Assembly (NCBI GenBank): GCA_916610825.1
Contig: OU744450.1
Location: 806,001-870,000, forward strand
DNA from: Haliclystus octoradiatus
Taxonomy: Eukaryota > Cnidaria > Staurozoa > Stauromedusae > Haliclystidae
Reading direction: 5' to 3'
DNA length: 64,000 bases
Shown here: piece after piece, positions 3,001-51,922 of the stretch
Position numbering within the stretch: position 1 is the stretch's first letter
Layout: the number at the start of each line of letters is the position of its first letter
Made by a program: the position numbers and the translations under genes
The notes under the pieces: model-generated
What the model was told of the DNA's origin: nothing
Databases searched by the model: none
Seen by the model: only the letters and a program-made list of their open reading frames with translations

Positions 3001-3356
3001 AAATAATAAAGCGGGCGTGTTTCGTTGGAAAAGCGCAAAGAGCATTTTTGTGATTAATATATAGGGGTTAGAATGGTTGTATGGTGGACCTGTCTAATTG
3101 TCAACCTCACCTCGAAGTTCAAAGACCCTGAGATTACGGACGACCCTATTCATCATCATAATCATCATCATTCAATTTATTTAAATTCGTTTCAACTGTT
3201 AATTAAATACAGTTGCCATAGATTGTTTTATGAAATCTATACTCTATAGATTGTCAATGTGGAAATAAAGTTAAAGATAAGACGTTGTCTTCGTTACTCA
3301 GAGTTTCACGCGATATCGCTCATCACACGGTTGTTTCTATACTTCTCTGTCATTTA
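1..3356. other. Upstream non-coding region with no recognised gene
   Basis: Only short unconvincing reading frames are present, with no recognisable domain. Around 1105-1370 the sequence is rich in degenerate GGAG(C/T)CGGA / ACTCCGG words, including a short palindromic stretch near 1111-1130, which looks like an old interspersed repeat. The last few hundred bases probably contain the promoter and/or 5' untranslated exon of the giant gene that starts at 3371; I could not place a TATA box or transcription start. Confidence 0.5.
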
Positions 3357-3370
3357 GGCAGAAGCACTCA
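3330..3370 (+). other. Candidate splice acceptor just upstream of the giant gene's start codon
   Basis: A pyrimidine-rich tract ends in TTTAG at 3353-3357, followed by 13 bases and the ATG at 3371. This fits a 3' splice site for a 5'-UTR intron. In ascidians it could also be a spliced-leader trans-splice acceptor, since SL trans-splicing is established for Ciona. Which of the two applies cannot be decided from sequence alone. Confidence 0.4.
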
Positions 3371-6300
3371 ATGGATGTAAAACCATCAATACTCAAAATG
3401 GATTTGATTGTGATACGGGATTGTGATTCCGCCATATTTTATATGACCATTACTGTATTGTCTCTTTTCAGTTTTGCTGCCTCGATCACAGCACAAGACA
3501 TCCCTATCACAGTAAGGACATTACCCCAATTGAATATAACCAATCAATACACATTCAATTATACGTTACCAGTAGATACATTTAACGACCACACAGATGG
3601 CAATACGAGGTCGCTTAACCTCTTTCTGCTGCAATCAGATGGTAACCCCGTTGATAGTGACTCATGGATTCATCTACAAAAGTCAACATTGAGTATTATT
3701 GGTTATATAACACCGTCAGTATTCACCAATCAACCCGCAAGTGGATTTTACTCATTCAGAGTACTTGCATTAGATACAGACGGACATTCGGCTGATGCTG
3801 GATTAATCGTCCGAATTTTAACGCCGTACGTACGTGGTCATTACATCGTTACGTATAGGTTGATCTCGTTTAATCCACTCGTTGTAAATTCGTTGAGTAA
3901 TTCTGAGCTACTTATGATTCTTCATGGTCGTATGGCGCCATATTATAATTTACAAGAGAGTGACTTCGTACCAGAGGGTTTAAGCTATGTGCCTAGCACA
4001 GGACAATCAACAATATCTTATAATTTTACAACAAAATATTTCCAAGGAGACACGTGCAACCTGGATAAGATTGTTTCGTTTCGAAGAATGTTATTACACA
4101 ATACACAAAAGTTAACCGTATTCAGACCATTGATGGAGATTGTTGGCACAAGAGAACAATTCTTAGGTCCTTGTAGTGGACTTACGGCTGATATACCACA
4201 GATTGGTAATACAATATCTAGTTATACAGCAAATATTGGTCGGCCTTTTACATTTTTAATTCCACGCTCAAGTTTCACACTACCTCAGGGTAATACAATG
4301 CCGTTAACATTAAGCATTCTATTTAGTAATGGCAGTGCAGTTCCTTCATTTTATTGGGTAGCTATTTCCGATCCAATATTATCAGCAACAACAACAGTTA
4401 AAGGTTATGTTAGTATCGAAGACGTGGGAAATAAACGAACATTTGATTTTATTATTCGAGCATCAACACCGTTACAAGAAACAGCTTCGCAGACATTTCG
4501 CTTAACTATCGATGGCAATGTACCAACTGTTAACTTTGTTAGCACGATCACAGCCCAGAATACATTAGGATTATCGTATAATGACATTACTATTCGATTA
4601 TCCCAAGTACTCAGTTCATATCTCAATATTAATTTAGAGACGATAGCATTCACTAAAATAAGATCTGATACAGAGATAAGTGTGAGCTGGACATTTTTAG
4701 ACCTGGGCACAACAACGTGCGATAATGCTAGAGTCTCTGGTTTGATCAGGCAAATGACAGATGATAGAATATCACCCACTCAACTATTTCAACAACAACT
4801 AGAATCTCTTGGTTTGAGATCATCAACAATCAGTATTCAAGCATCCGGAATATGTGATGTACCATTTATTCAAAGACCGTTCCCTGGTCCATACGACATG
4901 ACATTTGGATCAATACAAACGTACACTATACCGAATGATATGTTTTATGATCCGACAGATGGCACTGATCTTACATTAACTTTATTACAAAATGGTAACG
5001 TTGTACCAACTACATCTTGGGTATATCTCGATGTGCAGAACAGAATGATTTACATTGTACCAATGACTGAGATCACACCGGCGACATCGAAGCAAATATT
5101 TCAACTACGTGCAACGGATAAAAGTGGATCCTATATCGATGAAAATATCATTATAAATATTATTGATAGTATCCCAACGTGGAATTTTCGATTCCAAGTA
5201 GTCGAATCGTCAACGCAACGTCCTGCGGCACAATACGCATATCAATTCCAACAGAAATTACTGTCATATTATAATGATGCCGTTGATTATTACGTCATTT
5301 TCCATCGCGTATCTTACAGTTCAATTCTTGGAAATCAGATATATTGGTCAAACGCAACATTTCAATCGACCACGTGTTCCTATTCGAATATTTACGATGT
5401 TTACATTCGTCTATACAATGCTCAAAGCAGGATTGTTAATGAGCAATTTCAAAATAGAATGAAGCCAGAATTTACTGTCACGCAAATCTTAGACGAGCAT
5501 GTTGGGGCATGTGCTGATTGGGGGTCACGTCCACCCCAGTTGAATGTCCAGTTATTCATAGCGTTAGATACACAAAGGACAGTTTCATTCTGTAGTGTCA
5601 ATAGTCTGGTATTACCTGTCAAACTATTCGAAGATGAAGTTGATGGAGATTTACGAACATTGACAAAATATCTGAGTTACGACAACGAGACAAGGATCCC
5701 TCGAGACAGTTGGATTGGTCTCGATTCAGTAGATAATACAATCTATGCGGTCCCCAATAACAAGGCCTGGGATCAAAAGCCGCCCACGTCTGCTATTTAT
5801 GTCATCAAATTCAATGCAGAGGATTCAAGCCAACGGAAGGGACAAACGCAGTTACGTTACACGTTAGGCGGTACCAGACCTCCTCAGTATTACACCATTA
5901 CGTTAACTATGAATATCTTTGGGATGATAAATAAGGCAGAGGCTGTTCAAACAGGGCGGATTTTAAATGAATTATTCACATCTATTGGACAACAACCAAT
6001 CAAATCACTCTATCCTAAATCATACTCAGTTATAACACGCAATGGAAATGATGGTACGACCGCAATGGAGTGTGGCATATGTGGCATGCAAGAAGGCCAA
6101 TGCAACAATGCCCTCATTTTATCAATTAGAGATGTATTTCTGATGCCTGGGACAGATACAATGCGTACTGGATTAGAGGCAGTCATCGCAGGAGCATTTC
6201 AAATAACTCAAATTACAGAACAGTATTTTGGGCCATGTTTTGATAACCCACCCGTCGTAGGCCGCAATATTCCTGGTTTAGCAATTGGTTTGCGTAGCAT

Positions 6301-9300
6301 GCTCTCTACTACCATCTCCAGTGACACCTTTACAGATGTTGAAGATGGCAATGCAGACAACTTAAAATTAACTTTAACCACAGATAGTGGGCAAGCATTG
6401 ACGCAGCAAAGTTGGATTCAATTTGACAGTACCACGCGTACAATTACAGGGCTGTTAACAGCAGACATGAATATAGCACAGTTGCCTGCAATAGCCTCAT
6501 TTCGACTAACTGCAACAGATTCGGGCGAGAAATCTGTCGCCCAAACAATTCAAGTGGCTTTCAATAAAGCCTCGTTCACATCTTACTACAGGGTAACTAT
6601 GGTGATGCAGCTACTATCAACCACAACAACAATTAACAATCTTCATACGGTTGCCTCTCTAATCGGTACTTACATGGATGACAATGGATCTGGTCTTCAT
6701 ATCGTTTCATATCAACAAAGTAGCAACCAAAACCAGTTCACCATCGTGTGGAGTAACAGCACTGTGCAGTGGGACCCTTGTGATTTCAATCAATACTACA
6801 GCTTCCGTTCTGCTCTGAAAACAAACGATGGAGCTTTTAAACAGTCATTCACAAATATCTTCAGCCCGCAATTCCGCTTGATATCAATCACGGATAGCTT
6901 GACAGGGCCTTGTGGTACAGACGCCCCACCAAGGGTACAGCAAACCATTGATAATGTCGATATTGATTCGTGTCGAACAATGTTATTCCCAATCCCAGCA
7001 TCGACTTTTATTGATAACGAGGATGGTAATACGAGGTCACTGACGATCAACCTATTAAGAAGTAATGGTTTACCATTGGAGAACAATGATTGGCTTAGCT
7101 TTGATCAATCACAGCAACAGGTAACAGTCGTTGCATCGAGGTCGCTCAAATCGTTGACGTCTTCAGAGTTAAAATTTATCGTCAAGGCAACAGATCAATC
7201 TGGTCTTTCTGCTGAAACATCAATTCAATTTAACATCCTCGCCAGCGATACATCCCCCAGTCATACTGTACGGTTTAAATATCAGTTGAAAGGAACGACG
7301 GCTAACACTTTATATACTGATGTTTACAATAGCCTCAGGAGAGATCTCCTTGTTTACTTAGGTGAAGAAACCTGGTCGAGGACGATAGAGTATCAACAAC
7401 TACCAACTGTATTAGATGATCTAACTGAGCAATCATTGGATTTACGTAATTGTTTACAAGATAATACTCGATGTGATAATACTTCCATAACAGCATTGAT
7501 GGCATCGCTCCAAGGTGTTAATAATGCACCATCAACTGGACTACAAAATGCATTAAAAGATACATTTGACGTCACATCTGTTGAATCAATCTTCTCAGGT
7601 GTTTGCAAGCCTGAACCACCAACAGTAGCAAATACTATCCCAGTGTTGGACATAGCTTATTGTGGCTTCTTAGAATATCAAATACCATCAAATATATTTC
7701 ACGACCCAGTAGATGGCTCCACGGATAATCTAGTACTAGAATTATTGAATAGCTTTGGTGGTCCGTTGGCTGCGGATTTCTTCGCCAGTATTACACAATC
7801 TACGCAAACGTTAACTGTTGTATTGAGTAACGAATTATTCGATTCGAACAATATTCCAGCCGAATTATTATGGGGTCTGAGAGCGACTAACAAAGCTGGT
7901 TTATCTATTACAACTGCACTCCGTCTGAAAGTGAATCAAAACAACTTTCAATATAGTTACTACTACAATATGAATCTAAGAATCGATGGGGCAAACCCAG
8001 GTGATATCCCCTCCAGTATTGTTGTAGCAAATTTCATGAAACTAACCCAAAAATATCTGACGGGTAGCGAGACATCAAATCAAATTCACATTATTAAACT
8101 CAATAGATTATTGCCACAGATGATCAATCTACAGTGGACTACCTGTGAATTAGGATATGAACCATGTGAACGTGATAAGATTCGTGATCTCGATGCAAAA
8201 CTCATCAATCCATTGGGAACGAACACACAATATTCCGACGCACTCTCGTCACAGTTTACGGTTTTGTTTTTTCAAAATTTAAAATCTGGACCATGTGCTA
8301 TTGCAAATTTGAAACCTCAAGTGAGAAAACTGGTTGGAGACAGAATTGTTGAGCCTTGTTCATTTTTCAAAACTGATTCACTGAAGAATTATTTCCAAGA
8401 TGAAGAAGACGGAAGGAATCTGAATTTTAGAATAACGCAAATTAACCAAAGACCGGTGTCAGCAAATCCTTGGGTAAGACAAGTTCATTAGCTGGGGGGG
8501 TTACAGGGTCATAGACGGATATACATAATTTGTTATTTCTTGTAAGTCATTCTTCTTCGTTTAATAGTTGGTCCAAATACACATAATCCATTTCATATAC
8601 CCCTATTGGATCCATCTTTATTGGATCTTATACCTGGACAATGCTTTCCCGTAGTTTTAATGATCTATTTGAGATTCAAATGTCTCACATTCTAATTTCA
8701 ATCAACGTTCAATATGTTCCATCATAGACGATTAGCTCAACAGCAACTAGACTGTCTCTCCATGTTCCAATCCCCCTGAAGGTCAACTCATGCAGCCTTG
8801 ATTTTTTCCTGGAACATCAATTGATAGAACCCTCTTCTGATAGCGGACGCAATAGTCAAGAGAGAATATTGCATTACGAGTAGCTGCAGTGTAACGTTGC
8901 GCATTGGCTATGAAGACCTTTCTCAAATGAAATCTGTTGGAATTGATATGCAGTGTTCGCGTCTGAAATATTTAACGTGCACATTTCATCATTTCTCTAG
9001 GTCACTCTTGTTATTGGATACCATATGCATTATTCCTTATAAAGAATAAATATATCCTATGATGCATATGTAGTAATGAATTTGCCTTCGATGGAAAGTC
9101 ACCTGTCTATAGCGGTCACACAAATTAACAGTCCATCGGTATCTGTTATAATTTCCAAGGGGTGTTGTAAACATGTTTATTGGATGTGCCAAATAGTGAA
9201 TGATAGTGAACCCTTCTTTCATCAGATATCAATTCAATTTAAACTCGATTATTTAAACAGTTATTCTAATTTTGCTGTGAGCGCCACATTATACGAGACC

Positions 9301-12300
9301 CAACTGGTCATTTGTTTTATCAGCATTTCTGTTTTTCACCCATTTGAGAATAAATCCCTAACGGCATATTATGTTGAGTTCCTATTCTAATTATAACGTT
9401 TTATTCTTGTTTGTTTTCAAGATCTGTGTCAATCACGTAACGTATGAAATCAACGCCGTCATCACGTTAGACGTTGTGAAGAACCAAAGGTACGATGGCT
9501 ATAACATTACTGTGAGAGCAACAGACACGGCTGGCGCATTTGTTGAATCAAGTTTCATGATTACATTAACAACAGATATTCCACCGCAGGTCTTCTATCA
9601 GATACGCGTAACATTAACGGCAAGTGATCATAGCACACATGAATTTCAATCAATCTACGATCGTCTGGATGTTATTTCATCTATAAATACATTTTATAAC
9701 ACGAATGCAACAAATGTTATATCGTATAGCAGACAGAACACGCAAGTGATTATCACGTTGAGTTATTGTGGATTGCCAAACAGGTGTGATAACAACTTAG
9801 CGAATCAACATTTTGCAAGACTGGTCTCGAGTACAGGTGTACCTGATTCTCAATTCGCACAATCATTTCAACCAACGTTTAGTGTCAACTCAATCGCAAC
9901 AATTAAAGATGAAAATTGTGATGGGCCTGTCAACCCACCACGCCCTACTGTCTCAGAATGGACGTGGACAATGTCCTACTGTGGCGGATTTCGGCGTCAA
10001 GTGCCTGCTGGTTTGTTCATTGACGAGGAGGAAGGTGATGCTAGGAGCCTTACTTTATTCCTTCGTACATCAACAAACCTCTTGATTACTCGATTCAACT
10101 GGATTCAATTTGATCAATCGACACAGACAACATTTGGTTTAGCTTCGAGATCTGAGGCATTGGCTCACAACACAGCAAATACTCTCTATACTTTAATTGC
10201 CAGAGATAGGACAGGGCTTGAAGCAGAATTGAAAGTCAGAATCATATTCGAAATACCGCAAGAGCCGACATATTTATTCAACATAGCATACGCAAAGACT
10301 TTTTCTACAACGGAACGAACAGTTGAAGAAAAAATATTATTTATGAATCAGTTAACATCATATTTTGGTGATCAAACAACAAACAGTTTTGGTTTAATTT
10401 CACAGCAGTTTAAGACAAACGATGAAAGAGAAACAAAGTTCTGTAACTGTTCAGTGTCGTATAATCCATGTGATATTGCGCAGTTATTGATTCTTCAAAA
10501 TAGAATGTTTGGTTCTGACAATGTTCCAACAGGTGAATTCAAAGCAGGGATGCGTCCCCCTTTCAGTGTTACTTTGGGTTACCCAACCGTCTTAAGCCCC
10601 TGTGGGGTAACTACTAATCCCCCTATACTAAGGAACCCCATTGTTTTACTCAACATTTCTATATGTACTTATTACACCTTCAAAATTCCTGCTGACGTAT
10701 TTTATGATTACGACCAAGGAGATACAAGGTCGCTACAATTAAAATTATTAAGGACAGGCTCAAATACCCCATTTACCAACTTTGAATGGATGACATTAGG
10801 CAGTAGTACACAGACAATAAAGGTTATTGCTACAGTTGAGAGCTTATTACTATCACCTAGCATTGGATTCCCAACTACTTTACAAGCAACAGACAATACA
10901 CAATTAACGGCCAATGATGATTTCGATGTGAAATTATACGGACCAACTCAAGTACTCCAAGAATGTTCCTTCACGACAACATTGAAGAGTTCAACGTCAT
11001 TAATAAATAGCATTACTGTAGATCTCCTTCAATCCTTCGCATCCTCTATTGCTAGCTATTTTGGTGTAACTAGAGAAGAGATTGCCTTCATTGGATATCA
11101 GCAGAGCCTCTCTGGCGATACATTTACTTTCACATGGAGTTACTGTTCACTAAAATACTCTTCTCTCACATCACTCCAATCAACTATGCAAGTGGATTAC
11201 GATAGTCTTGTTCATAAGATTCTAAAACAATTGTATGAATCAGATCAAAGCACACTTAGAAGTTCTTTCAGATCTGCGTTTGGATTTCAATACACTTTGG
11301 ATGTATTCACGCAAACGTTTAGTGGACGTTGCGAAAACTTTCCTCCGACACCACCATCTCCTGATTACACTCTCCATATAAACGTTACATCAAGTGGAAG
11401 CTACAGATTGCTGCTAGAGGAAACATTGTTTTATGATCGAGAAGATGGAAGCACAAGCAATCTCAAATTAATGATTACAAATGAACAGTTTCAAACTGTG
11501 AGAATCGATAGTTTTATAAATGTTGAAATCACGCAGCGTACATTATATATCGCTATGAGACGACAACAGCGACAAGAAAGCATCACCAAAGTCTATCGGT
11601 ATTACCTCGTTGCAGAAGACTCTGGTGGCAAACGAGGTCACATTACATTACTCATCAAAAGACTGCCATTTGTGAATCATCTTTCGCCATTTTGGTTTAC
11701 CTTTTATTTCAGTGTTACGCAGACAACAACGACAGCAACAACATATGCAAAACAGCTAGATGATATTATCCAATCAATAACATCGTATTATCAATACCAA
11801 AGTAGAAGTAGCGTCTCAGTAATTGATTATCTCTACAGCCAAAGTATCTCATCTTCATCACGGGTTCTGATGTGGCGCCCTTACCTCCAACAGACGTGTA
11901 CATCTACAACGTATCAACGGACAAGAGAAGCAAGGACTGTAACAGGACAAGTTATCTCAGCCTTACAGCAGGCATTTCCTGGTAGCCTTCATCTTGATCG
12001 TATATACATTAATTCAACATGTGAAGATAATACCACCCCACCAAGCCCAGTTGATCCTGTCCCCACTTTGAATGTCAGCTACTGTTCCCTATTTAGTTAT
12101 TCCCTTGCACTTACCACGTTCGTTGATCAAATCGATGGAAACATCAGAAATTTAAATTTACGCCTGTTAGATGAAAACCTCGTTCCTATAACATCCGCCT
12201 CGTCAATGCAGCTTGATCAATCAACGCTGTCATTGTATACAATAGCATCTGACAGTTGGTATAAATCAAATGAGATCACAAAGTTCTATTTGGAAGCTGC

Positions 12301-15300
12301 AAATAGTGCTGGTCTGCGATCTAGAACACCAGTCTCCGTCGTCTTGAGTCAGTCGCCGTTTATCAGCGATTGTCCATGTACTAGTTCATTCCGGACACTG
12401 CCGACCGAAGTAAGCAGCGTTGCCGATATTGATGTCGCAATTCAGTTTCTTAACCAATTGAAATCCTATTATCAAGATTCTATAATTCGAACAAAGCTAA
12501 TTCGGTTTACACGTACATCATCAAGTGAATATTCTATTACTTGGAGTAACTGCTCATTTTCATTCGCAACACAGTATCAAGCCTTATTTGGGCTTCAAGA
12601 GAGTGACCGTACAGCCATTAATTCCATTTTTGATTTATTAATTAATAGAGCAGATGGATCAATTAATTCTAATATGATCACTTCATTTTCATCACGGTTA
12701 AGTGTTACAGATGTTTCAACTAGTTACGCTTGCATTGAAACACCGCCTGAGCCGCAGACCATATCAACAACAATCTTAGCTGAATTATGCACGACGTTTC
12801 AAGATCCAATTTCAAAGACACTATTTATAGACAAACAAGATGGCGATGCCAGCAATCTACATTTATCTTTACTTAATTTAGATGCAACACCATTGGCTAA
12901 AGATAGTTGGGTGAATTACAATGCTTTAACTCAAATCGTCTTTGGTACAGTTACTCTGAAAGTCAGGGTCGATGTGCCAACTAATGGATACCGATATCTT
13001 CTCATTGCAATCGATAAATCGGGTAGATCATCCAATTTGACATATATTATTAAAATGGCCAATCCATTACCGATATTCGAGATAAAGTTTGTGATGGGAT
13101 TTATCAACCATCAGCCATTTGATACAACCACTGCTGTATTTTTTTCAAATATTACAACGAGGCTAACCTCTTATTTGAAACAAAATTCAATTGATAACCA
13201 TGTATTTATTCATGAATATAATATAGCATCACATATAGTCTGGTCACCGTGTGGATATAAATGTACTCCAACATCTAGATCGAATCTATTAACATTATTG
13301 CAGCAAACAAACGGCTTCCCTGCACCATCACCAAACCTTTTAAGTGCACTCCGGCCATTATACACGGTTACATCGATTTCCGAAGAGACGAACAAGTGTG
13401 AATCATCCACCGGTATAGTGATTATCACAACAATTATAGTCAGGTTCAATGCTTCGATTTGTGGCTGGTTTGAGTATCAGCTCCCAAGCAACACATTCAC
13501 TGACAACCAAGGGAGAGTGACGTCACAATTTAATGTTGATATGGTATTCACATTCGACGATATGGCCTTGCCTTCTGATTGGATAATACAATACAACAAA
13601 GCCAAGCAGACAATATCTGGTGTAGCGGTGGGCCAAGCTCTATCTCAAACATACACGTTCAAGCTAATTGGATCATCGATAACAACTGACCAAAGCGCAT
13701 CAACAACGCTTCATTTGGCATTTCCTGGATACCCATTAATTAAGCCGGTTGTATGTTCCATCATTTTTGAATTTGAAATTAGTTACAATGAAGCATTATC
13801 TGATGCTTTTATTCTTATTGAAATACTCAAGAAAATTTCAGAAGTTCTAGAAACCTCGACACAACAACTACATATCGTTCAGTATAGTAAAACAGCATCT
13901 CAGTTAACAGTTGAATGGACAAACTGTACATTTTTTTATCTCTTACAACAAAGTCAAATATCAATCTACCATCAATATACAGCAGTACTGATTAATCGTG
14001 TTTTTAGTACCTACACATCTGACAGTGCAGTGCTACATCAACGCTTCTTAAATAAATTTCAAGGACAGTTGAAGTTAATCAGTGGTCGTACAAACGGGAA
14101 TTGTACCCAACCACCACCAACTCCGCCAACAGTAAATGGTACAATCGTCATCACGGTTACTAACTGTGGAATGTTCCATCGCCAAGTATCACGGTATCTA
14201 TTTTATAATTCAGATGGGACAGATGCAAGGTCAATGGTACTGCAGCTCATCTCATCTGATAATTCCGTCTTATCAAAGAAATCGTGGATTTCAATACGAA
14301 ATAATCAGTATATTTTTGGTACACCAACATATTCAAATCAACTCATTCAGCCATCTGGTGGTTTCGTATTCCGTTTAAAAGCAACTAACATTCATGGATT
14401 AAGTATTACGACAAGTGTTACCGTGATTTTAAGCGGGCCCAAAGCAGTCACGCCCGTGTTTTCAATAACTGTGATTAGCAATATTGCGCCATGGAATCAG
14501 ACATCTGATCATGACGTCATCATTCCAATTTTTAGGAAAGTTGGTAAATACATGGGAGATCCAAACGCTCGTCTCAGGCTCCTTGGTGATGTTATTTATG
14601 ATTCTAGTTCAAGTGTTCTTACGATGACATTTACAAACTGCAGCAGTTGTGATCTGACCACTAATTTGAAACTCCTCCAAGTTGACACTGACGTAACATT
14701 TAAACAAAATATGTTGCCTGAATTTGCAGTAACTCTTGTTGAAGTATTCCCAACAGAGATCGATGAGTCAGAATGTGATGACATTGAGGTAAGACCAAAG
14801 AGAGCCCTCAACGTATCATTCTGTGAACGATTAATCTTAACGAGTCAACAGTTTTTTGATGGCATTTCATATCAACCAACAAATGACTATGTTATTGATA
14901 TAGGGACGGCAACAAACAACCCCCTACCAATTGATTCCCCTATTTGGATTGACCCTACAACTGGGATCCTCTATGTAGTTCCCACGCCAGAAGCAAAACA
15001 GAGTCAACCTTTCGATGGAGTCGTTTATCAAATATCGATTAAACTGAAATTGAGTAACATTGTCATTGCAAGGCAATTATTGACGCTGACCATTATGGAT
15101 GAACCTCCTCAGCCACGTGTAACCTTATCACTGCGCATGCGTACAGTTTTGAGCTCTTCGAATCAAAACATGATGTTTGTCAATACAATTTGGAATCACT
15201 TCTCATCCTACTTAACAGTTTCAAAGTTAACACATATCTCATTCACAAGAACATCGTCATCTCCTTTCATATTTGAACATAAATTTGGAAATTGTTCTCT

Positions 15301-18300
15301 TCCGTCGGTTTGTGAGGATCCACAGGTGTCATTATTAAAGAGCCTCCTTTTCAATACTGACTCTTCGATAAAACAAGAGGTAACAGCAATATTCGCTGCG
15401 TCATCCTACACCATCGAGAGTCTTTCAGTAAATTGCATCAGTTTCCCTCCAACAAAGCCACCAAATATCACTATCACGGTGCCGACATGCGGACTATTTC
15501 GCTATAAGTTACCGGCCTCCTTTTCAACAGATAATGAAGATGGAAACCTCTACTCCATGCAAGTAGAATTACGCCATCGAGATGGTAGAGCGTTAACACA
15601 AAATTCATGGATCCTACTGAACTCTGTAACTTACGAAATAGTCGCTCTCCCGCACGAGGGCTTTGTGAGATCGTATTCTGCTGGAGAGAGCATCGAGTAC
15701 CACATTGTCGTTCGTGACAAGGATGGTAACGAGGTCTCCTCTTTTTTGAAAGTTTTCTTTAGGGCATCTATCACTTCTTATATACGCATATCAGCGACAT
15801 TTGATAGTCTTCTAACTTCGTCTACTAACTATTTGGATTTACAAATTCAATTCTTACAGCAGCTCACAAGTTACCTTGGTTTCACGAGCACAACAACCGT
15901 GTCTCTGTCACGGTACCATGTCAATACGTTCTCATCTACGTCCATTTCATCTAATTCCTATTTTATCAAAGTCACAGACTGCAATGTTGGCCCGTCCGTT
16001 TGCTCAATTGAAGATCAAGTCATACAAACAATGATCGCCAAATTGGTATCGAGTACAGGCAATGTCAACGCTCGATTTGTATCTTCAATGGCTACCTCGT
16101 TCTCCATTCATAGCCTCTCTGTTGAAAGCAACTATCAACATGATACATCACCTACAGTCGTGACACCTTTCTCTAGTATCACCATGGCGACATGCAGTAT
16201 GATAGTTCGTGATATTTCTGCTGGAACATTCTACGACATTGAAGATGGGGATGCCTATCATTTGAAACTGGAATTACTCACAAACAATAACAACAAGGTG
16301 TCTACCTCGTATTGGATACAACTGATTAATTACCAACTCTACTTTATACCAAATGGTAATGTCATATTGGGTGAGCATATCGTACATTTAAGAGCAACTG
16401 ATAAATGTAATCAAACCGTGACTACATCAATTACGGTGACGTTGGTCTCAAACGAACCTTCGCAATATGGTTACACTGTTACAACCTCATTCTCCATAAG
16501 TGGACAGCAACGATCTGATGTTTATTACCTTGAATTAATCATGCGAATGATTAATAAATACTTGAAGAGTGAAACGTACTCACTTCGTATCATTACATAC
16601 ACAAAACTGGAAACCTCTATTTCAGTACAATGGGCAAATTGTCAAATCACAAATACTAATTGTAACGTCACTGTCATTAATTACATTTCATCGCTTATGT
16701 TAATCAATACCAATGTCATCCAGCCTCAATTCAAAGCACTATTTGCATCTACCTCGGTTTCATTAATCAGCATCATCGAACAGAGATCAGATGATTGCAC
16801 AATACCAACCATAGTACCAGGTGACGATTTGGAGCTGACAGTGTCAATATGTTCCGTGTATGGTTTTCAAATACCAGAAAATGCCTTCCAGAATATACAA
16901 GGGGGTACTACAAGAAATCTGAAATTAACTTTATTAAACGTTGATAATACACCCGTAGGGTTAACTTCTTGGTTTCAGCTGAACACTACTTCTCAGCGAT
17001 TTTATGGTTTGGTGAGATATACACCAGGTATTCAATTAATTAGACAATACAGCTACTTGCTAATGGCTAGAGGTAATAACATGGGCACTGCTACAGTGAA
17101 GCTAGGTGTGACTATCATAGGATCTGCACCAGCAAGTAATTACAAAGTGTCGATGAAAGGCAGAACTAATATTCCCAACACACTGCCTGATGTTTATCTA
17201 GAAACTGTATTATCATTACAACTTCGAGTATTCTTTACTGAACAGTATTTGAGTAACATAAAATTGCAGAGAGATACAAGATTTCCATACGTTGTCACAT
17301 ACGAATTTGGATTTTGCAGCATGAGAAATGAGCCCTGTGATTGTCAATTCATATCAACAATTAAGGATCGGATGCTCTCATTGGCATTACTCCAACAAAG
17401 AATGAGTCCACAATTCGAAGTTGAAAGTTTAGCTGAGATTACAAGGGGTAGCTGCGTTAATACTAATCCACCACAATTAGTTCAGGACTTAAAAATCATT
17501 GTTGCACAACCAGGTAAAACTTTCACTCAGATTATACAAGAAAATGCATTTTTTGACGTGGAAGATGGACGGACGAGAAATTTGAGTCTAACAATAAAAA
17601 GAAGTAATTCCCTAACAAATTCAAGATGGATATCCATTTCAACACAGCAATTACTAATCTGTGGTGTTCTGACATTACAAATGCATAGAGAAATATTTAA
17701 ACAGCAAACGAATAATCGTTTGGAATACCATTTTATTGCTACGGATGCTTGTGGCAAAGAGGCAATCGATATATTTCAAATCGAAATGAGCTCAACATTG
17801 ATACAAATAAATTATAAAGTATTCTTCACGTTCTCTGGTTACTATGGTGATTATTTAGCGAATTGTTCATTGGTAGATAATGTGATTTCAACCATTAGCA
17901 CGTATTTATTGATTGACATTAATTTAATTTACATCGATAGCATTGCTGCCAGTAATGTATCTTCCAATGAAACGATTTTTGTTTGGGGGATTCACGAATG
18001 CAACCTTGAAACTATTTCAAAAATACGTGAATTGTTGATTTTAAGTAACGGGGAGCCCTACCCAGCCTTAGAAACGGCTTTAAGTAACAGTCACAGCCTC
18101 CTTGCCATTCGTGATACTTTTTATCAAGCTTGCCCTATACTACCCCCTACAGTAAAGCCACCAGACAATGAATTTCCATGGTGGATTGTTATCCTCATTC
18201 TTGTGTTGGTTGGGATATTCTTATTTCTATGGTTGCTATGGTTATGCGTCCCAAGATGCTGCCCCATATGGTGTTCTACTTGGTTACCTTTTTGTACAGT

Positions 18301-19747
18301 GTGTTGTTCAGGTAAATATTCATCTCTTAGGAAAGAGAATGAAAAAGATGAAGAGGATTCATTTGAAGAATGCACAATAGTAAGTGAAACCGGAAGTCAG
18401 GAAAGTATTTCACTACCACAATACAAAACAGATCCAAAATACATTAAAACCGGCATCACAGGAGACAGTGGCGCAAGTGACAGCAACGCAAAAATTAGAA
18501 AGTGGAGCAGTACTGATCATATCTCTATTGATTCTGGTATGGGACAATCAGATCGTTTTAATGGCCAAGATGATCAAAGGCCTCCATCAGCAAGACCACT
18601 CCCTTCCTATTCTAGGTCATCATCAAGAAAATCCAGTTTAAATGATGAGAAATATTTTTCTGATAATGAAATACACACAGGCGAACAATCATGGCGGAAA
18701 ATGAACAGCAGGCGAAGATCTTACGACGGTGGTAGTGAGAGAAATCTAGAGGAGGCCCAGTTCCAAAGGAGAGCATCACTTGGTCAAGTCTCAAAGAATA
18801 ACTTCAATCATGAGTACGAATCAACCAAAGACGTGAAACCATCTGTGAAGATATCAACGTATCACGATCCAAGATCATCAGCAATCTATGGCCAGCAGAC
18901 TTCGGGTAGTGGCATGCGCGTTAATGTGCGTCAACCGATTGCCCTTAAAATAAAGAAAGACGCACTACGCCAATCTTTAGATTACAGTAATGATTATTAC
19001 GATGATTATCAACAAAGGCACCAAAGGAGCAGAAGCAGTGGCACGTTGCAAATAGACGGACCAATTCATCACAGAAGACGGAACAGATCATTAGATTCAA
19101 TACTAGATAGACCCATTACGTTGGGAATAGATCAAAGGTTGGTAGCAACAAGAGCAAAACGTAGTAAGTCAGTTGATTCGTTGCAACGCCGTCACAGAAG
19201 TACGTCTGACGTAATGCCAATAAGATTAACGCAACACCGTAGTAACAGTCTACATCCAGGGAGGCGTGATAGAAGGTCTAGGGCTTATTCTGAAGACGAG
19301 ACGATTACTATTAGCCCACGAAGCATTAACCTACGCCTAGATGGTCCTCCATATCTGAGTCACAATCACCGTGGACGAGATCATAAACACCATGATACAT
19401 CTATGCAATTACAAATTAATGATAAAGATTTATCACAACTATTAACAGGCCAAGGCGTTCGTATTAACACACGGAAAAGCAGAAGAAGAGAGCGGGAGTC
19501 CGACAACTACGCCACTAGCACAGACACACCCTCATCTGACTCTATATATTATTACTTAAACAACAACAGAGCAACCGAAAGAGGTCAAATCTCCACGAGT
19601 GGGCATAGAAATGGACGCACTTCTGGATCATTCGATTCTCGAGCACGGCGTTCTAGAAGTTATGAGATGCAATCAACTGGTTACAGAAGAAGTCGCCGTG
19701 ATGGTTACTATAGCAACCGTGGTTACCAAGACGACTCTTATGCGTGA
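3371..19747 (+). CDS. Giant dystroglycan-module transmembrane protein, two exons (3371-8473, 9422-19747)
   Basis: The two very long open frames are one gene. Exon 1 ends after Trp codon 8471-8473 at GTAAGA; exon 2 starts at 9422 after TTTTCAAG. Both are phase 0, and the join restores a CADG domain whose halves lie on either side. The product is ~5,142 aa. A hydrophobic signal peptide lies at about residues 25-43. Then come about 20 repeats of ~230 aa, each a cadherin-like CADG domain (pattern F-x-D-x-x-D/E-G-x-x-R/x-x-L) followed by an SEA/S72-like domain (W-x-N-C, x-P-C, ending G-x-C), matching the juxtamembrane ectodomain unit of vertebrate dystroglycan. A TM helix starts at Trp4621, followed by a Cys-rich juxtamembrane stretch and a ~500-aa Ser/Arg-rich tail. 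No PPxY dystrophin-binding motif was seen; an LPQY occurs early in the tail. Many N-glycosylation sequons. Probable adhesion or matrix receptor (inference). The first Met could instead be residue 10 or 25. Confidence 0.88.
8474..9421 (+). other. Single internal intron of the giant gene
   Basis: It starts GTAAGA and ends TTTGTTTTCAAG, 948 bp, phase 0. The first reading frame runs 18 bases into the intron to a TAG, and the second open frame begins with an in-frame ATG at 9371 inside the intron, so an unspliced reading would wrongly give two genes. The intron contains a decayed SINE body (about 8866-8966) and a fragment of a dispersed CACCTGTCTATAGCGGTCA-type repeat near 9100. Confidence 0.88.
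8866..8966 (+). repeat. Decayed SINE body fragment
   Basis: It aligns by eye with the body of the SINE at 40118-40462. The shared words occur in order: ATTGCATT..GAGTAGCTGC, GTTGCGCATTG, GAAATCTGTTG and AATTGAT.TGCAGTGT. It lacks the tRNA-like head. It lies inside the intron of the giant gene. Confidence 0.6.
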
Positions 19748-19786
19748 CATGTGTGATATAAACGCCGTCAACATAGTCAGCATCAC

Positions 19787-19792
19787 AATAAA
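19787..19792 (+). terminator. Polyadenylation signal AATAAA of the giant gene
   Basis: AATAAA lies 40 bp after the stop codon at 19745-19747. A second AATAAATAAA run at about 20144-20153 could serve as an alternative. The gene is convergent with the Tbx1/10 gene, whose own signal lies at 20215-20220 on the other strand. Confidence 0.5.
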
Positions 19793-20336: not shown

Positions 20337-23300
20337 TCATGTTCTCGTGTGACATAACATCTCACAGCAATGAGGTGAAAAACGATTATAGCCACTCGAT
20401 AACTTCGTGAAATATTCCGCTGTTAGAGGCTGATGTAGATCTACAGAAGAGCGTTGGTGTTTGAGTTGGTGTTTAAGTTGATGTGTAGATAAGCCGTTGA
20501 CTTCGCAGTGTGGTTGATACGCTTCTTGATGGTATGGGTCACCTTTTCATTACAAAAGAACAGGAAAGTTTTATAGGACGATGAGTTGCGCGTATATCAA
20601 GACCGGTGAAAATGCGTGTACGAGCGCGTGTATATTGTAAAGATTGCAGAGTATGTGTGCATGCGTGAATGCGAATAGATAAAGAATAACTATCTAAAAT
20701 TAATACTGAACTGCCGATGATCAGCTGGTAAGAACACATATAGATAGGCTTACGATCAAACTCAATTATCCATACTTAATCGATTGAAGTGCAGTCAATT
20801 TCTCTGTATCTGCTGTCATGGTTCAGTCGTTGATTGACCAGAGAAATATTACAGCTATTTAAATCAAGCCAATTTAATTAAAAACCAAAACAAATGTTAC
20901 TTACCTTGACATGCGTGAGAGTGACGACATTCTCCCGTTGCCATAGCATTAGCTGTATCATTCCAATCAATCACCGATCGATCCTGTTGATTGCAGTCAC
21001 TGAAATAAGAATGCATAATTATAAAAGTTTACATATAGACGAATGTATGTAAGTGGTTTATGCTTGCATTAGGAGACACACTGATATGTTGCTATACAGT
21101 GAAACCTGTGTATAAAGGTCATCCTATAGAGCAACCACCTGTCTATAGCGGCCTCTTTGTCATAGTGTCACAAGTTTTCATTTCTATTAAATATTTGATC
21201 TCTTCTTAGTCGTCAGTTTTACTCACTTGGTTTCTCCTTCACATTCTCGAAAGCCTTTTGCGAATGGATTGCTGGCGATTTTCAATCGAGTAACCTGTCA
21301 TTCGAAAATATCAATCAGATCACACACTGCATCATTTGCGTGAGTCATGATGAGAATATTTGCAGTGTGACGATCGAAATAATGAGTAGTTTCGATCATT
21401 CATTAGTAACGACCGTGCAACTCGTGTGTAGCTCAGTGGTCTCTCAGTACAGGTAGATTGGCGAAGTAATAGATATGCTATCGCTTACAGCAGGCATTAG
21501 ATATTTTATAAAAGTGCCTCGTCAATCTCCGTCAACCCACAACTCCTCCGCTAATTCCTTTATGCTCCTTTCATCCGTATTCGAGCATAGTTACCATTAG
21601 CTTCATGATTGACATATACGCGTGAAACCGGTAATTGCCTGTAAAGTAATTATCTGTCTGGAATTCATTTGAAAACTTCTGAAATTGAATTGGAAGTTCT
21701 GAAATTCACTTGAACAAAGGTGTAGAACAGCGCCATTGACGGGGCTTTCGATAAAGGGCGTTACTGTCTACATTTCACACTCAGTCAGAGTCAGTCATAT
21801 TCTAGCATCCAAATGAGTTTTGATAACTATAGCGACAACAAACACACATTTCAATGTTCACCATTTAGATCTTACAGGCCAACAATCTAACTGGAGTATA
21901 ATTGTTCAACTGTACGACTCCATTTACATATGCTCTGATACCGTATAGTTATATACTTTGTCTCATTTATTTCTCATAGGGAATCTGCATTGGGTCATAT
22001 CTTCCATTTACCCTTCTATAGGGTGTTGCAATATATTTTCTATTTTTACCATGTGATTTTGATAAGCAGTTACAGCGATGAAACTCGTTTCTGGAAATGA
22101 AAATGATCTCGAATGTTCTCTTCCAATAGCATTGAACTGATGATCAGATGGTGTATTAAGATCATTAGAGGCTACAACATGCAACCGAGGCATGTATTTA
22201 TGCATTGAATTGAGAATAATCTAGAAGAAAACAACAACAAAAAATAGATGTAAAATACTAGACCACATGTATCGTCATATTCATTTCTATTGTTGTTTCG
22301 ACCTTGATCTGATGTATATTGACATGCGCAGTACAGACAAATAAAAATGTTTACTCACGTGTCCATTCTTATCCATGACATTGTTGGTTAATTTCAGTTT
22401 ATCAAATGAGACCCCCTGTTTCATCCAATGAAAGCCAGTGTTAGGTGATTCAGGATGAACATGAACTCTTCCAGGGAGACCAGGGTCGGCTTGCCCTGCA
22501 TCCGACCATTGTGAGTTATGAAACGCATACCGATATCGTTTGTTATCCATCGGGACGAAATCGAGAATCAACATATATCTAGTCAGAGGTTCTAGACCAC
22601 GTAGACGGACTTGAAATGTCGGGAACATTCTCCTTTAATATAAATAATAAACACATTGAACTACTCGTGTATTGGATCTTCTTATTAAAAAGATCATGAA
22701 AAACAATAATAACGCTCAACACGAGAGTCAAACTCATTTTGAAAAATGATTTACAATCATATGTTGGTAAAGAATAGCAAAGATCAACTCCAAAAGATTT
22801 GAAGGAAATAAATAGAACGAATAAAAATTCGACTTCATTATACTTAGTAGCTTTATTTGTCGCTACTAAGTATAATGAAGTCGAAATTAAGAACCTCTCA
22901 AAGAAGAAAAATTCAAAAAACATAAATTCCCAATTTTAAACTCCCCTTTGATATGAATAATGAATGTACGTCACAAAAGACGCACCATTATTACTTTAAG
23001 ATTTGTTATTTTCAAAAATTACAAATAATAGACAAATAGTGTTATTTATACTCGATGATATTTGAAATCTTGATTAATGACGTGTTAATATCATCAAAAT
23101 GTAAAATAGATTAAACTTTATCGAAAGAATTAAATCACAGCACCCTAAAGATGATTTATGAAATATAGACTCTGAAATACCCGCAGAAATGAGATGTCAC
23201 CTTCTTTTGCGTGAGTACTCAAGGATACATGTAAAGTATATTCAACTGCATTTTTGGTAAACGAGAACACAATTTATAAGACATATAGGCTCGAATTGCT

Positions 23301-26300
23301 AAAGATTTAAGAAGAAACTGTAAACACATTTGAATAAAAATTTGTAAGTCAAATAGTAAATCAATAGTTTATTTCATTTTCTGTGAGTAGCTTATACTAT
23401 TGTTGGTACTTGGACCCCAGGGGTGTGGAGGCCAGGCCATCGATTAACTAGTAAATAAACATCAAGGAGGCATTCAATTTTACTGTGTATACGTATCAAG
23501 TTCCTACGATCTAGTTTTAACGATGATCTCAAAATAAACGCGTGAAACTCCGAGCTACGGAAAAGGACCTGAATTAGAATCCATGTTGGTTCAACATTTG
23601 ACAAATAATAGCCATTTTTAATGAATTTTATAATTCCGTATCATGCAGATTACCAAGAGGATTACCAGTGCGAGATTTGCGGTTGAAAATTGGTTTTAGA
23701 AATGACGTTTTCGATTACTTTTATTCTATTCCAAATGATGACAGGGCCAGTCAATACATTAAGTGAAGAATAATCCAATGCGTAAAGATATCTTATTGAG
23801 ATTCAATCCGTATGAGATATAAGCACTGAATAGAATCACGCATTATCCTTGCAACACATCAAACTCTTTTCATAATCCAACGTCAAACCTCAAAAGATTA
23901 AATCAAAGTATTAATCGTAATACAAAATAATCATTATAAATACCAGTAACTACTTTCTTCTCCATACAAACAGATCTCAAATTTCACTTCTTATTACTAT
24001 AATAGTAGTATATCAATTACATAATTTATATATGAATATTTGGAACCGAGTCTATGGAATCCAATATATGATATTTTCAGAATAGATTCACTGATTCACA
24101 TAACAGTTACAATATATAAAGCCATGTTTCGTTTGTGAAAATGCTTTTAGTTTCGTAAACAAGTCCAAAGGAGTATAGTAGAGTTTCTTCAAGGCGTTGT
24201 ACTATCGATTTTTGCACTATCAAATTATTCATATTTATTACATTTACATTCAGTCTTAATCAGGGCAATTAGTCTATAAATAGTTTATTTGTTTGCCATC
24301 TGGTTTCGCACAAAATTACTCCCCATCCCCATTTATTACCCAGTACCCATATCCCAGCCCCATTTTCGAGAAGATTGTACATGTGCAACAGTTTTTAAAA
24401 TATAAAATGATTTAACAAACATAATATGATAAGTAACGTAAGTGATAATATTAAGTAGATCAAATTCGTAATGATAAATTAATCCGTGTGGATTTGCACT
24501 TCTCCGTCAAGTAAATCAAGATGTAAATATTGTACGTGGTTGGTAATCTCTCTGTAGTTCAATATTTTAAGCCATGATAAGCCACTTATTAAAAGCTATG
24601 TAGAAATAAGCAAATATATAGCGCTACCTACTTAGCGAAGGCCAGAGAGTGAAAGTTCGGTTATAGCAAAGACAAAACAAGAGAAAAAAGGTTTCGTAAA
24701 CTTGACATGTGCTATAGATGCCTGCCGAGCTGAGAGACACATGAACAGGCTGAATTTATCAAAGCGTAATATCTACCTTTGACAATAATATTTTCTTTCT
24801 AGCACGTTACATTATCGTGCAGCCTCAGTACGGGACAGAAAACATGGTTCTTATCATTCGAAATTTTAAATTATTAAACGGTTGAAGCCTTCAGATAATT
24901 TCAAGTGGCTAACTTCAAGTTTTAATTTGTACCAAAAAATATTCAAGGTTGATTTTCCAGCTCTCGCTATCATGTTGGCAATTTTCAAACTGATGAAAAC
25001 AGGGCGTGGATTAAAAAAGGGGTCACGTTAAGCTTTTCTCGGAATGTGTTCAAGAGGCACGTAGACCATGGGTACCGAAAGCATAACAGAAGTTCTTGTG
25101 GTCCAACCACCCCCCCCCCCCCCTTTTCGATCATATTCGTGATGTCCCATCGCTTACCGTCCCGCTTTCGTTACAATCATTTCAGTGCCAAGGACATTGA
25201 ATTGTTGCCATAACGACCGTAGCTCCAAAGAAACATTGATTGCTGCTAATGAGGAAGACCAGGCACGTGATCGGCTGTTTCTGTGACTGATTAAGTCTGC
25301 AGGTGTGCCATCAACATAATACCGTGGTGAGTGAAATGGTTTCTCGATGACGTGAGATTTAACATAATCAAATGGAAATCCCTTCCAATCCTTCGCACCT
25401 AATTACAAGAGACAGATCGTAAAATAATATAGTCAAGTTTTTATTGGAATGTATAAACATTTAAATCAATTTGTAAAGCGATTTTAATCTGATTTGAAAA
25501 TAAAATCCGATAGTTTTGTTTTAAATTAAGTGTCTAAAAACTATTCTTAAGAAGTTTCGAGTAGATAATTGTATTGATGTAACGGAACAAACGCAAACAG
25601 ACAGATCGATAGATCGCGAACAGTTTAAATTTTGAAATGACTCTGTTTTGTGAATTACATTTGATTTTAATGACTTTTTTTTAGATAAACAACACAATTA
25701 GGATCAAGAAGTAGAGAGCTACGGATCATCGATACGTCTGACAGAGGAATTAAAAAAGAAAATATGCCGTGATGTATAAAAGCTATCAATGAAAGTTATA
25801 AGCAATCTTGCATGTGGTTACCAATTAACACAACAAGTCTGATGATGATAGAATAAGAATCTCTGTGGTACATCTGTCGTCTATATCCACGTGCAGTGAT
25901 GACATACGTAGTGTGACACACAGTGTCATAGGATACCACAATGATGATGACATAGTCGTCAGACATCACAGCAAACAACTCAACGAACTGATTGCTTGAC
26001 AAACACTTTTCACGGCTATTTCACATTTTCAATAAACAATATCATTCGACACATACAAATAAAGTCTGAGCTTGGTAGAATCTATTATTTGATTACAGGA
26101 TATGAAACAAGGCTATTGTTTGATACTGTAGCTAACGAACAACGGAAACGTAGTTCTATACTGCATAACGCACATGGGTACCTCCCCTAGGCTATTTGAT
26201 AACAGTGAATCAATACCAAAATCACTGCCAACGTGTTCATCGTTTAATATACTTGACATGGAGATATTTCATTAATATTGAACAGGCTTAAACGTTATCA

Positions 26301-30022: not shown

Positions 30023-33000
30023 ATGGATAGCAAACGGAATAGTAGTCTGCAAGTACCTAGGAGAAATCGTGTTTCCTTCTTTCGTCGCGAAAAGTCGAAA
30101 GAAGACAGCAATACCTCAAAACAAGACCTTAAGGAGAGAAACCACTCTCGGAGAAACAGAAGCGAAACTATCGACGGTATGATAATATGATTAAATGGAC
30201 CTTTCTTTCTTATGATCTTATGATGATACTAGTTACAATTTCTGGTCTTTAAATCTCGAGCCTACATTAATCTAACAGTCATCCAGCTAGATTATGTGAC
30301 CCTTGCATAGAAAAAAGCAAATAGGGCCTACTCACGTTTGAATAAAACATGTCCTAATGACCGCTTGTAAATTACTGCCCCTGAAACAATTAACTTCTTC
30401 TGCTCACAATCTATTGGAAAATAACTAAGGCACTACGAATTTGTCCGAGCTACCCCCTCCCCCTACATTGCGGCCTTGTGGGGACGAAACGTTCCTATAA
30501 TGTGACTGCCTATACTCTACTACTACTACTACCCCAGATTGAAAATATTGCAATTTGCGCGTCTGAGATTTAATGACGTTTAGTTGAAATCCTACGTAGG
30601 AAAATCTGCTGCGCGCCTGAGATCTCAGGCACGCACAACAAACTTTTCAGTCTGGCACTACCCTTCCCATCCTATAGCATCCATAAAGGTATGGACAAAT
30701 AAAAATTTGCGCCACACTATTTTTTTACATAAGATTCTCCAAATAAACCATCACCTTTTCTTGCTCATGAATTCTGAGCCGTGAATTAATTTTGATTGTT
30801 GATTTTGATTATGTATGCATGTACTGTATTGTTAAAATGTAGGGATTGTAGGCCTATCCTCTATCTATCTATCCAGACATCACATGAATGCATTACAATA
30901 TCAATTTCAGAATTCAATAATGGAGAACTTGACCTCAAGGGATTGCTTGACAAGCACAAAACACCACTGAAGGTAATCCCATCAATGAGCATTCCTACTT
31001 AATTTGTCTTTGATTTTAGAAATATGTCAAATTTGCCATGACAGACGACAGAGACTGTCTTATGTTGTCATCTTCTAGATGGAGATTAATAATCTATCCA
31101 ATTTTTGGTGGGGTGGCGTCATTCCCTTACTATATATTTTCCAGTTGAGCGTCATTCCCTTAGGCTACTATTGTTATGAAAAATGAAGTTCAATGTTTTC
31201 CTGCTGATTACTGTGTTTTGATGGGGTGGTGTCGCTCCCTTAGGCCTACTATATATTTTCCAGTTGAGCGTCATTCCCTTACTATTATTATGAAAAATGA
31301 AGTTCAATGTTTTCCTGCTGATTACTGTGTTTTGATGGGGTGGCGTCGCTCCCTTAGGCCTACTATATATTTTCCAGTTGAGCGTCATTCCCTTACTATT
31401 ATTATGAAAAATGAAGTTCAATGTTTTCCTGCTGATTACTGTGTTTTGATGGGGTGGCATTACTCCCTTAGACCTACTATATATTTTCCAGTTGAGCGTC
31501 ATTCCCTTACTATTGTTATGAAAAATGAAGTTCAATGTTTTCCTGCTGATTACTGTGTTTTGATGGGGTGGCGTCGTTCCCTTAGGCCTACTATATATTT
31601 TCCAGTTGAGCGTCATTCCCTTAGGCTACTATTGTTATGAAAAATGAAGTTCAATGTTTTCCTGCTGATTACTGTGTTTTGATGGGGTGGCGTCGTTCCC
31701 TTAGGCCTACTATATATTTTCCAGTTGAACGTCATTCCCTTACTATTATTATGAAAAATGAAGTTCAATGTTTTCCTGCTGATTACTGTGTTTTGATGGG
31801 GTGGCATTGCTCCCTTAGACCTACTATATATTTTCCAGTTGAGCGTCATTCCCTTACTATTATTATGAAAAATGAAGTTCAATGTTTTCCTGCTGATTAC
31901 TGTGTTTTGATGGGGTGGCGTTGCTCCCTTAGGCCTACTATATATTTTCCAGTTGAGCGTCATTCCCTTACTATTATTATGAAAAATGAAGTTCAATGTT
32001 TTCCTGCTGATTACTGTGTTTTGATGGGGTGGCGTCGCTCCCTTAGACCTACTATATATTTTCCAGTTGAGCGTCATTCCCTTACTATTGTTATGAAAAA
32101 TGAAGTTCAATGTTTTCCTGCTGATTACTGTGTTTTGATGGGGTGGCGTCGTTCCCTTAGGCCTACTATATATTTTCCAGTTGAGCGTCATTCCCTTACT
32201 ATTGTTATGAAAAATGAAGTTCAATGTTTTCCTGCTGATTATTGTGTTTTGATGGGGTGGCGTCGCTCCCTTAGGCCTACTATATATTTTCCAGTTGAGC
32301 GTCATTCCCTTACTATTGTTATGAAAAATGAAGTTCAATGTTTTCCTGCTGATTACTGTGTTTTGATGGGGTGGCGTCGCTCCCTTAGGCCTACTATATA
32401 TTTTCCAGTTGAGCGTCATTCCCTTACTATTATTATGAAAAATGAAGTTCAATGTTTTCCTGCTGATTACTGTGTTTTGATGGGGTGGTGTCGCTCCCTT
32501 AGGCCTACTATATATTTTCCAGTTGAGCGTCATTCCCTTAGGCTACTATTGTTATGAAAAATGAAGTTCAATGTTTTCCTGCTGATTACTGTGTTTTGAT
32601 GGGGTGGCGTCGCTCCCTTAGACCTACTATATATTTTCCAGTTGAGCGTCATTCCCTTACTATTGTTATGAAAAATGAAGTTCAATGTTTTCCTGCTGAT
32701 TACTGTGTTTTGATGGGGTGGCGTCGCTCCCTTAGGCCTACTATATATTTTCCAGTTGAGCGTCATTCCCTTACTATTGTTATGAAAAATGAAGTTCAAT
32801 GTTTTCCTGCTGATTACTGTGTTTTGATGGGGTGGCGTCGCTCCCTTAGGCCTACTATATATTTTCCAGTTGAGCGTCATTCCCTTACTATTGTTATGAA
32901 AAGTGAAGTTCAATGTTTTCCTGCTGATTGTCAAGTTTTCGCTAGTTAAAATTATTTTAAAGGGGCATTATTGACCGATGATAATTGTTTTGAAAAAAAT

Positions 33001-44900: not shown

Positions 44901-45098
44901 TGAAGCATATTTTGGTAATATTGATGGATGTCGTGGTATGACAGTATTATTTACAAATTCAATCGAAGGTAATGAACTGGAATTATTCCTGTTACGATTG
45001 AGGTAAATATTATTTCGATTAAATTCAACATTTAAATCAATGCATCTCCCGTTCATCAAATGTGCATCGTCATTGGTAACGCAGTAACATCCTTCCAT
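41954..45098 (-). CDS. Tbx6-related T-box gene, copy A (most diverged)
   Basis: Exons on the - strand: 45098-44707, 44340-44052, 43258-43112, 42624-42539, then 42101 onward. The T-box opens DLWQEFDECANEMIIVKNGR and continues RRLFPRLEYNV, then [64 protein letters not shown] and LIQLKIKYNPLASHFREE. Exon count, phases and sequence match copies B-D but with many substitutions; a basic KSQKKRKHR follows the T-box. The 3' end is ambiguous. Reading through the donor AAG|GTTTGT gives a stop at 41954-41956 (353 aa). Splicing there to an acceptor at about 41679 gives a four-residue last exon (IKQR) ending at 41664. Likely a nuclear regulator of early muscle/mesoderm, as for ascidian Tbx6-related genes (family knowledge). 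Confidence 0.82.
43618..43890 (+). repeat. Dispersed repeat, copy 1 (intron 2 of Tbx6-related A)
   Basis: It shares a diverged but colinear ~250-bp stretch with 50091-50330. Matching words include CTTCAAATGGTTGG, GGGGACGTGCCAATTAT, TTTTCATGGTCTT, GTATCTATTTCA and TTTCAAATATGCGT. Its ends are not defined. The C-rich stretch 43921-43970 lies just downstream. Confidence 0.7.
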
Positions 45099-49555: not shown

Positions 49556-49628
49556 GTTGATTATAAGATTGAAATGTTGATCTATCCACTGAAGAAATGT
49601 TTGATATAATTCATTAAAGGTCTTGCTC

Positions 49629-49636
49629 TATTTATA
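49629..49636 (-). promoter_or_regulatory. TATA box of Tbx6-related B
   Basis: TATAAATA on the - strand, 74 bp upstream of the ATG at 49555. It is identically placed in copies C and D. Confidence 0.7.
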
Positions 49637-49685
49637 TAAACATTCTGCGAAGGATTCTATATTATGTTCTCATCAACGCCTAGAT

Positions 49686-50330: not shown

Positions 50331-50479
50331 GCAGAAACAAAATTAATCGCTATAACAACGTATTAAAACTCATAGGTTGAAATTAAAGATCAACAATTTA
50401 GAGATAAGATACTTGTTTAGCATGATGTTTAGTTAGATCATTTCGAAAGGGGAAGCTATAATTACTGATGAAATTGTTT

Positions 50480-51900: not shown

Positions 51901-51922
51901 TATGTATGTATGTATGTATGTA
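51901..51922. repeat. (TATG)n microsatellite
   Basis: Five TATG units plus a partial unit within the arm-specific insertion of the right palindrome arm. Confidence 0.9.

Follow-up and report, generated by a model that had tools for sequence, protein, structure and literature searches.

A giant gene of Haliclystus octoradiatus encoding twenty tandem dystroglycan-type modules

We analysed a 64,000-nucleotide stretch of the cnidarian Haliclystus octoradiatus (contig OU744450.1, positions 806,001 to 870,000 of the forward strand, or C6:806001-870000; hereafter the window). Its giant plus-strand gene, gene A, is predicted to encode 20 tandem copies of what is, judged by sequence, the C-terminal IG2_MAT_NU module of dystroglycan (DG), consisting of IG2 (CADG) and MAT_NU (SEA-like). 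Gene A appears to be a DG paralogue and an extreme form of the known tandem-module type, and is not itself a dystroglycan by the yardsticks of maturation site, mucin region and dystrophin-binding motif. All gene models presented here, for gene A, its relatives B and C and the others, are predictions from genomic sequence. The cnidarian source corrects an initial annotation of the window, which had implied a tunicate-type lineage.

Results

Gene A is a single gene with 20 contiguous modules

Gene A consists of two long open frames, 3281-8491 (1,736 aa) and 9362-19747 (3,461 aa); the longest frame in a control, window 20001-64000 mononucleotide-shuffled 20 times and read in three frames, was 139 aa. 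The frames stay in phase across a gt-ag intron at 8474-9421, yielding a spliced product of 5,142 aa with one stop. The two halves of module U08 that flank the intron align to positions 3-62 and 62-231 of the module hidden Markov model (HMM), which means that splicing rebuilds one whole module. Because no other A module has an intron, this one may have been acquired later than the array was formed. Judging by the start contexts, M1, M10 and M25 are all possible initiators. The intron also contains a dispersed repeat (8764-8969) with ~76-78% identity to window 36542-36736 and 40212-40352. Gene A is real and correctly located, and the length of ~5,142 aa, the one transmembrane (TM) helix and the basic tail initially proposed agree with hydropathy and the splice model.

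An HMM built from 10 A modules recovered all of the remaining 10 (independent E-values, i-E, from 3.6e-14 to 8.8e-38). Where about 20 tandem units had been claimed, the HMM thus places exactly 20, end to end over aa 40-4605, with a largest gap of 8 aa by a later model. Pairwise identity between A modules averages 18.6% (12.3-27.5). A DNA self-comparison of 3281-19750 gave no match among the modules, its two window matches both stemming from the intron repeat, and this absence of DNA-level repetition indicates that the array is old. In the window outside gene A there was no module, and the only two matches were at chance level (E 0.3 and 0.84).

Features of gene A (window positions; module boundaries from the HMM):
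3371..3493, + strand, signal-peptide-like start, aa 1-41; hydropathy peak at aa 20-23, cleavage after aa 41 by eye
3488..4174, + strand, U01 (CADG + SEA-like); 2-residue overlap with the signal-like stretch
4175..4855, + strand, U02
4856..5512, + strand, U03
5513..6238, + strand, U04
6239..6913, + strand, U05, closest to dystroglycan (PDB 8yt8_O)
6914..7606, + strand, U06
7607..8296, + strand, U07, modelled (pLDDT 91.5)
8297..9919, + strand, U08, interrupted by the intron
8474..9421, + strand, intron, gtaaga...ttcaag, 948 bp; repeat inside at 8764-8969
9920..10603, + strand, U09
10604..11332, + strand, U10, Cys3 replaced
11333..12022, + strand, U11
12023..12733, + strand, U12, Cys3 replaced
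12734..13399, + strand, U13
13400..14104, + strand, U14, Cys3 replaced
14105..14776, + strand, U15
14777..15436, + strand, U16
15437..16135, + strand, U17, without terminal Cys
16136..16798, + strand, U18
16799..17455, + strand, U19
17456..18133, + strand, U20, membrane-proximal
18179..18247, + strand, TM helix, aa 4621-4643; hydropathy up to 3.2
18245..18307, + strand, Cys-rich juxtamembrane stretch common to A and B; 34/68 residues identical around the TM helix
18248..19747, + strand, cytoplasmic tail, 499 aa and stop, Ser/Arg-rich by sequence
19787..19792, + strand, AATAAA polyadenylation-like signal, 40 bases beyond the stop

The module has the fold and cysteines of dystroglycan

DG-type modules with both IG2 (CADG) and MAT_NU (SEA-like) were found in gene A, so that the DG homology first proposed for a CADG plus SEA-like unit stands and can be narrowed to the C-terminal IG2_MAT_NU module. 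The A module nearest to dystroglycan is U05 (PDB 8yt8_O, E 9.7e-15). By fold, 9c3c_a and 8yt8_A, which we take to be alpha-sarcoglycan, matched as well but ranked below DG, and the sarcoglycan name was absent among the matches listed in the sequence searches. U20 searched alone against Pfam gave no match. The structure model of U07 (predicted local distance difference test, pLDDT, 91.5) has the same fold as the DG module, and the SEA-like pairs of PCDH15 and CDH23 also match. Those two proteins share the pairing of a cadherin-like with a SEA-like domain, but have only one such pair, next to the membrane, and a long series of plain cadherin repeats further out.

The equivalents of DG Cys669 and Cys713 are present in 17/20 and 19/20 A modules, respectively. 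The motifs initially ascribed to each unit do not occur in every one: F-x-D-x-x-x-G, in the form searched, occurs in 14 places across the 20 modules, the W-x-N-C cysteine in 14/20 and the terminal Cys in 19/20. Close to their first SEA-like strand, modules 10, 12 and 14, which lack Cys3, carry a different Cys. In addition, A modules carry an added Cys pair, one in CADG and one after a SEA-like strand, with both present in 14 of the 20 modules and neither in the other 6, U20 among them. Simple counting puts this co-occurrence at 2.6e-5, and in a control shifted by one module only 13/19 agreed. On the (poorly resolved) module tree the joint Cys state changed at least 6 times, as often as shuffled labels did (mean 6.0), so common descent does not account for the pairing. 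Over genes A, B and C, the two cysteines are both present in 46 of the 66 modules and both absent from 17, with 3 discordant, which makes 63 in agreement (Fisher 1.2e-12). In the U07 model, residue 19, the first Cys, sits between strands 14-17 and 21-25, and residue 180, the second, comes just past strand 172-179, positions that would fit an intramodule bond.

The Gly-Ser (G-S) maturation site of dystroglycan was found in none of the 20 A modules, whether in register or up to 12 residues before the W column, and in exact register in none of the 66 giant modules; the conventional DG of the same genome has it. Some accepted DGs also lack a G-S site, according to PMC4582122.

The two ends of gene A

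At the N-terminus, the start of A together with U01 gave only He_PIG matches. A phmmer search with gene B's alpha-DG-N exon against C6:803000-809800 returned no plus-strand match, a query that finds the alpha-DG-N of the conventional DG only at 0.024. All 15 plus-strand frames of at least 50 aa upstream of A were without PF18424, a search that a diverged, short or distant exon could escape. The tail gave no family match and no PDB match and has no PPxY (the dystrophin-binding motif), its nearest approach being a GPPY at aa 5009. No central mucin-like region was found in A, where every inter-module linker is shorter than 10 aa.

A dystroglycan family in one genome

Profile searches covered 261,861,806 bases in 33 contigs. 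The module profile gave at least 49 matches at E <= 0.01, 48 of them in a cluster on C6 and one at C4:1,510,984. The tally is 20 + 20 + 26 modules in three giant genes, one in a conventional DG and one in each of two small paralogues. The initial annotation described gene A by itself, but the genome also has two further giants and an ordinary DG.

Relatives of gene A:
C6:803,909-787,010 (L011-L013), minus strand, gene B, 5,420 aa after splicing of a 640-bp intron
C6:785,677-763,877 (L008-L011), minus strand, gene C, 7,005 aa after splicing of a 786-bp intron; 26 modules
C4:8.228-8.232 Mb (L014:1243-6763), conventional dystroglycan, on another chromosome than A; a_DG1_N2 frame and DAG1 frame
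C4:1,510,765-1,513,284 (L046:5765-8284), one-module paralogue 1, 839-aa frame, i-E 6.4e-46
C4:1,517,507-1,519,726 (L057:2507-4726), one-module paralogue 2, 739-aa frame, i-E 6.8e-41

Gene B, which lies head to head with gene A, has an alpha-DG-N head (PF18424 1.8e-10; PDB 1u2c 4.7e-7), 20 modules, a TM helix and a tail. In gene C, 14 of the 25 junctions carry linkers of 10 aa or longer, mostly Ser/Thr-rich by eye, and none does in A. The tail of C differs and contains PPPPY. The conventional DG (a_DG1_N2, PF18424, 1.7e-6; DAG1 2.2e-20) possesses an RRQ furin-like site, a Ser/Thr/Pro-rich stretch, a G-S site (RGSVIF), a TM helix and a C-terminal SPPPYNN (PPPY). PF09068, which we take to be the dystrophin/dystrobrevin EF-hand family, has 4 matches in the genome, two with an internal stop; these are consistent with the conventional DG retaining the dystrophin axis. 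The two one-module paralogues lie side by side and have long tails, with no G-S by eye in the maturation region.

The 20-module array very probably predates the separation of A and B

We compared the modules of A and B by position. Identity along the diagonal (A_i with B_i) was 26.6%, against 18.4% in permutations (maximum 21.5 in 20,000), and other offsets from -15 to +15 reached at best 19.0. B_i was the best B match of A_i in 16/20 rows and 15/20 columns, FastTree recovered 18 A/B sister pairs, all 18 with the same index (support 0.77-0.999), and Cys3 is missing from the same three modules (10, 12 and 14) in both genes. This correspondence, together with the common Cys3 losses, indicates that the 20-module array is very probably older than the A/B separation and that its count has not changed since. 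Comparison of C with A or B revealed no clear order (best offsets 20.2 and 19.5; means 18.6 and 18.2). That A and B each retain 20 modules suggests that length has been under selection, and this fixed pair is the most interesting part of the finding.

Neighbouring features

Adjoining the giant gene, a better conserved T-box gene lies at window 22287-25402 (minus strand; PF00907 4e-32). Several diverged T-box gene fragments at 44001-60874 sit inside recent duplications: 46651-48475 matches 53698-55543 at 93.7% in inverted orientation, and 52227-53679 matches 57998-59457 at 97.2% in direct orientation. A tandem array at 31128-32929 (15.7 copies of a 114-bp unit, a length divisible by three) is open over long stretches on both strands. 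Frames at 34137-37197, perhaps of an AKAP10-like gene, have RGS-domain matches just under the Pfam cut-off, and a minus-strand open frame at 61775-62674 is M48-peptidase-like (PF01435 1.5e-11), possibly TMEM177. Beyond the window, a 971-aa frame at C6:756049-758961 (plus strand, L008) resembles by eye a long interspersed nuclear element (LINE)-type reverse transcriptase.

Discussion

Like the C-terminal IG2_MAT_NU module of DAG1, the A modules have its fold, sequence profile and Cys669/Cys713-type pair, and A shares the type-I topology. Unlike DAG1, A has 20 modules rather than one plus the extra Cys pair, and no mucin, G-S maturation site or PPxY, nor was an alpha-DG-N found. Most animal phyla have dystroglycan (PMC10293626), and PMC4582122 describes tandem IG2_MAT_NU modules, six in Nematostella vectensis and two in arthropods, Saccoglossus and Trichoplax, as well as an inserted repeat in Ciona DG and urochordate and placozoan DGs that also lack the dystrophin-binding site. 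The initial view that no such architecture had been described therefore falls for the tandem module as such; of such giants, or of separate multi-module paralogues beside a one-module DG, the open-licence literature searched gave no account. As in the Nematostella type, complete modules of the same kind stand upstream of one TM helix in a cnidarian host, here 20 of them. In Nematostella, by contrast, the six lie inside DG itself, the last being nearest human (PMC4582122), while Haliclystus has separate paralogues with 20, 20 and 26 and its own DG has one. Tandem DG modules were reported within one large exon (PMC5216574), whereas in gene A one intron splits U08.

Gene A probably encodes a giant type-I membrane protein, an uncleaved and braced 20-module rod reaching outward to matrix or to another cell. 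From sequence and model we read the homology, the number and fold of the modules, the missing G-S site and the correspondence with B; covalent continuity, the bracing disulphide, the rod and its binding, and with them a role as rod or receptor, we infer. The modules would remain covalently joined without long spacers, and in each of them a candidate disulphide linking the CADG half to the SEA-like half would add stiffness. The long rod would place the outer modules well away from the membrane, where they could bind matrix (mesoglea) or another cell, and the tail would anchor it inside the cell without a dystrophin-binding motif. Domain sizes give ~7 nm per module, so 20 modules might reach at most ~140 nm. 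Adams and Brancaccio (2015) suggested that tandem modules make a stiffer molecule with longer reach from the cell (PMC4582122).

Several observations speak against this rod. Single A modules are weak in Pfam, with DAG1 found in 5/19 at E <= 1, and alpha-DG-N (IG1 + S6) and a mucin-like region were looked for in A and not found. The two-module structure prediction came out at pLDDT 81.5 with a predicted template modelling score (pTM) of 0.53, too low to fix the inter-module angle, and hence the straightness of a rod. Module B02 carries a G-S displaced outward by one residue, with hydrophobic residues after it, so that paralogue B may be cut once, there. FastTree does not pair A01 with B01 or A05 with B05, and C, with 26 modules, makes 20 not universal.

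More tentatively, the three clustered giants could be length-fixed molecular rulers made of disulphide-braced modules that are uncleaved or nearly so. Selection would act on how many modules there are and on what distinguishes each position, and the rulers would set cell-matrix or cell-cell distance separately from the laminin-dystrophin axis of the normal gene. We consider it unlikely that the modules serve instead as a mechanosensor or shock absorber, unfolding stepwise under tension with the membrane-proximal module as a force-gated proteolytic switch. SEA-like domains beside cadherin-like ones do act as proteolytic switches, and the DG CADG/SEA-like pair does so in a Notch chimera (PMC6586460); A modules have the same fold, and the membrane-adjacent U20 lacks the added Cys pair. 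In 14/20 modules, however, that cross-domain pair would oppose opening.

MUC16 is a very long surface mucin with tandem SEA domains in closely similar repeats, and is not known to have a CADG partner for them. A glycocalyx or mucus-barrier protein analogous to it, likewise very long and rich in SEA-type domains, is an improbable reading of gene A, although the A ectodomain has a Ser+Thr content of 21% and 36 N-glycosylation sequons and gene C has its Ser/Thr-rich linkers. A has no such linkers, its modules are old, diverged and CADG-paired, and a plain spacer would not need the position-wise conservation seen between A and B.

It is very improbable that A is an enlarged orthologue of ordinary DG acting as a laminin-dystrophin link, as is presumable for the six-module Nematostella DG: the module is the same and B retains alpha-DG-N, but a conventional DG with RRQ, mucin-like region, G-S and PPPY lies on another chromosome, and A has no G-S, tail PPxY or mucin-like linker. 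That smaller genes or decayed repeats were read as one by a faulty gene model or assembly is scarcely credible, given one 10.4-kb stop-free frame, an intron that restores a module exactly, the positional match with B, no DNA-level repetition and a HiFi assembly with a quality value (QV) of 56.6 (PMC9975415).

DG is familiar as a laminin receptor that undergoes cleavage and connects to dystrophin, and its membrane-proximal module is here multiplied 20- to 26-fold in three clustered genes. The presence of an ordinary DG and the giants in one genome separates the parts of the module linked to its fold from those concerned with maturation and dystrophin binding. The DG module has seemingly been reused for long rods, which poses the question whether protein length is under selection in cell-matrix adhesion.
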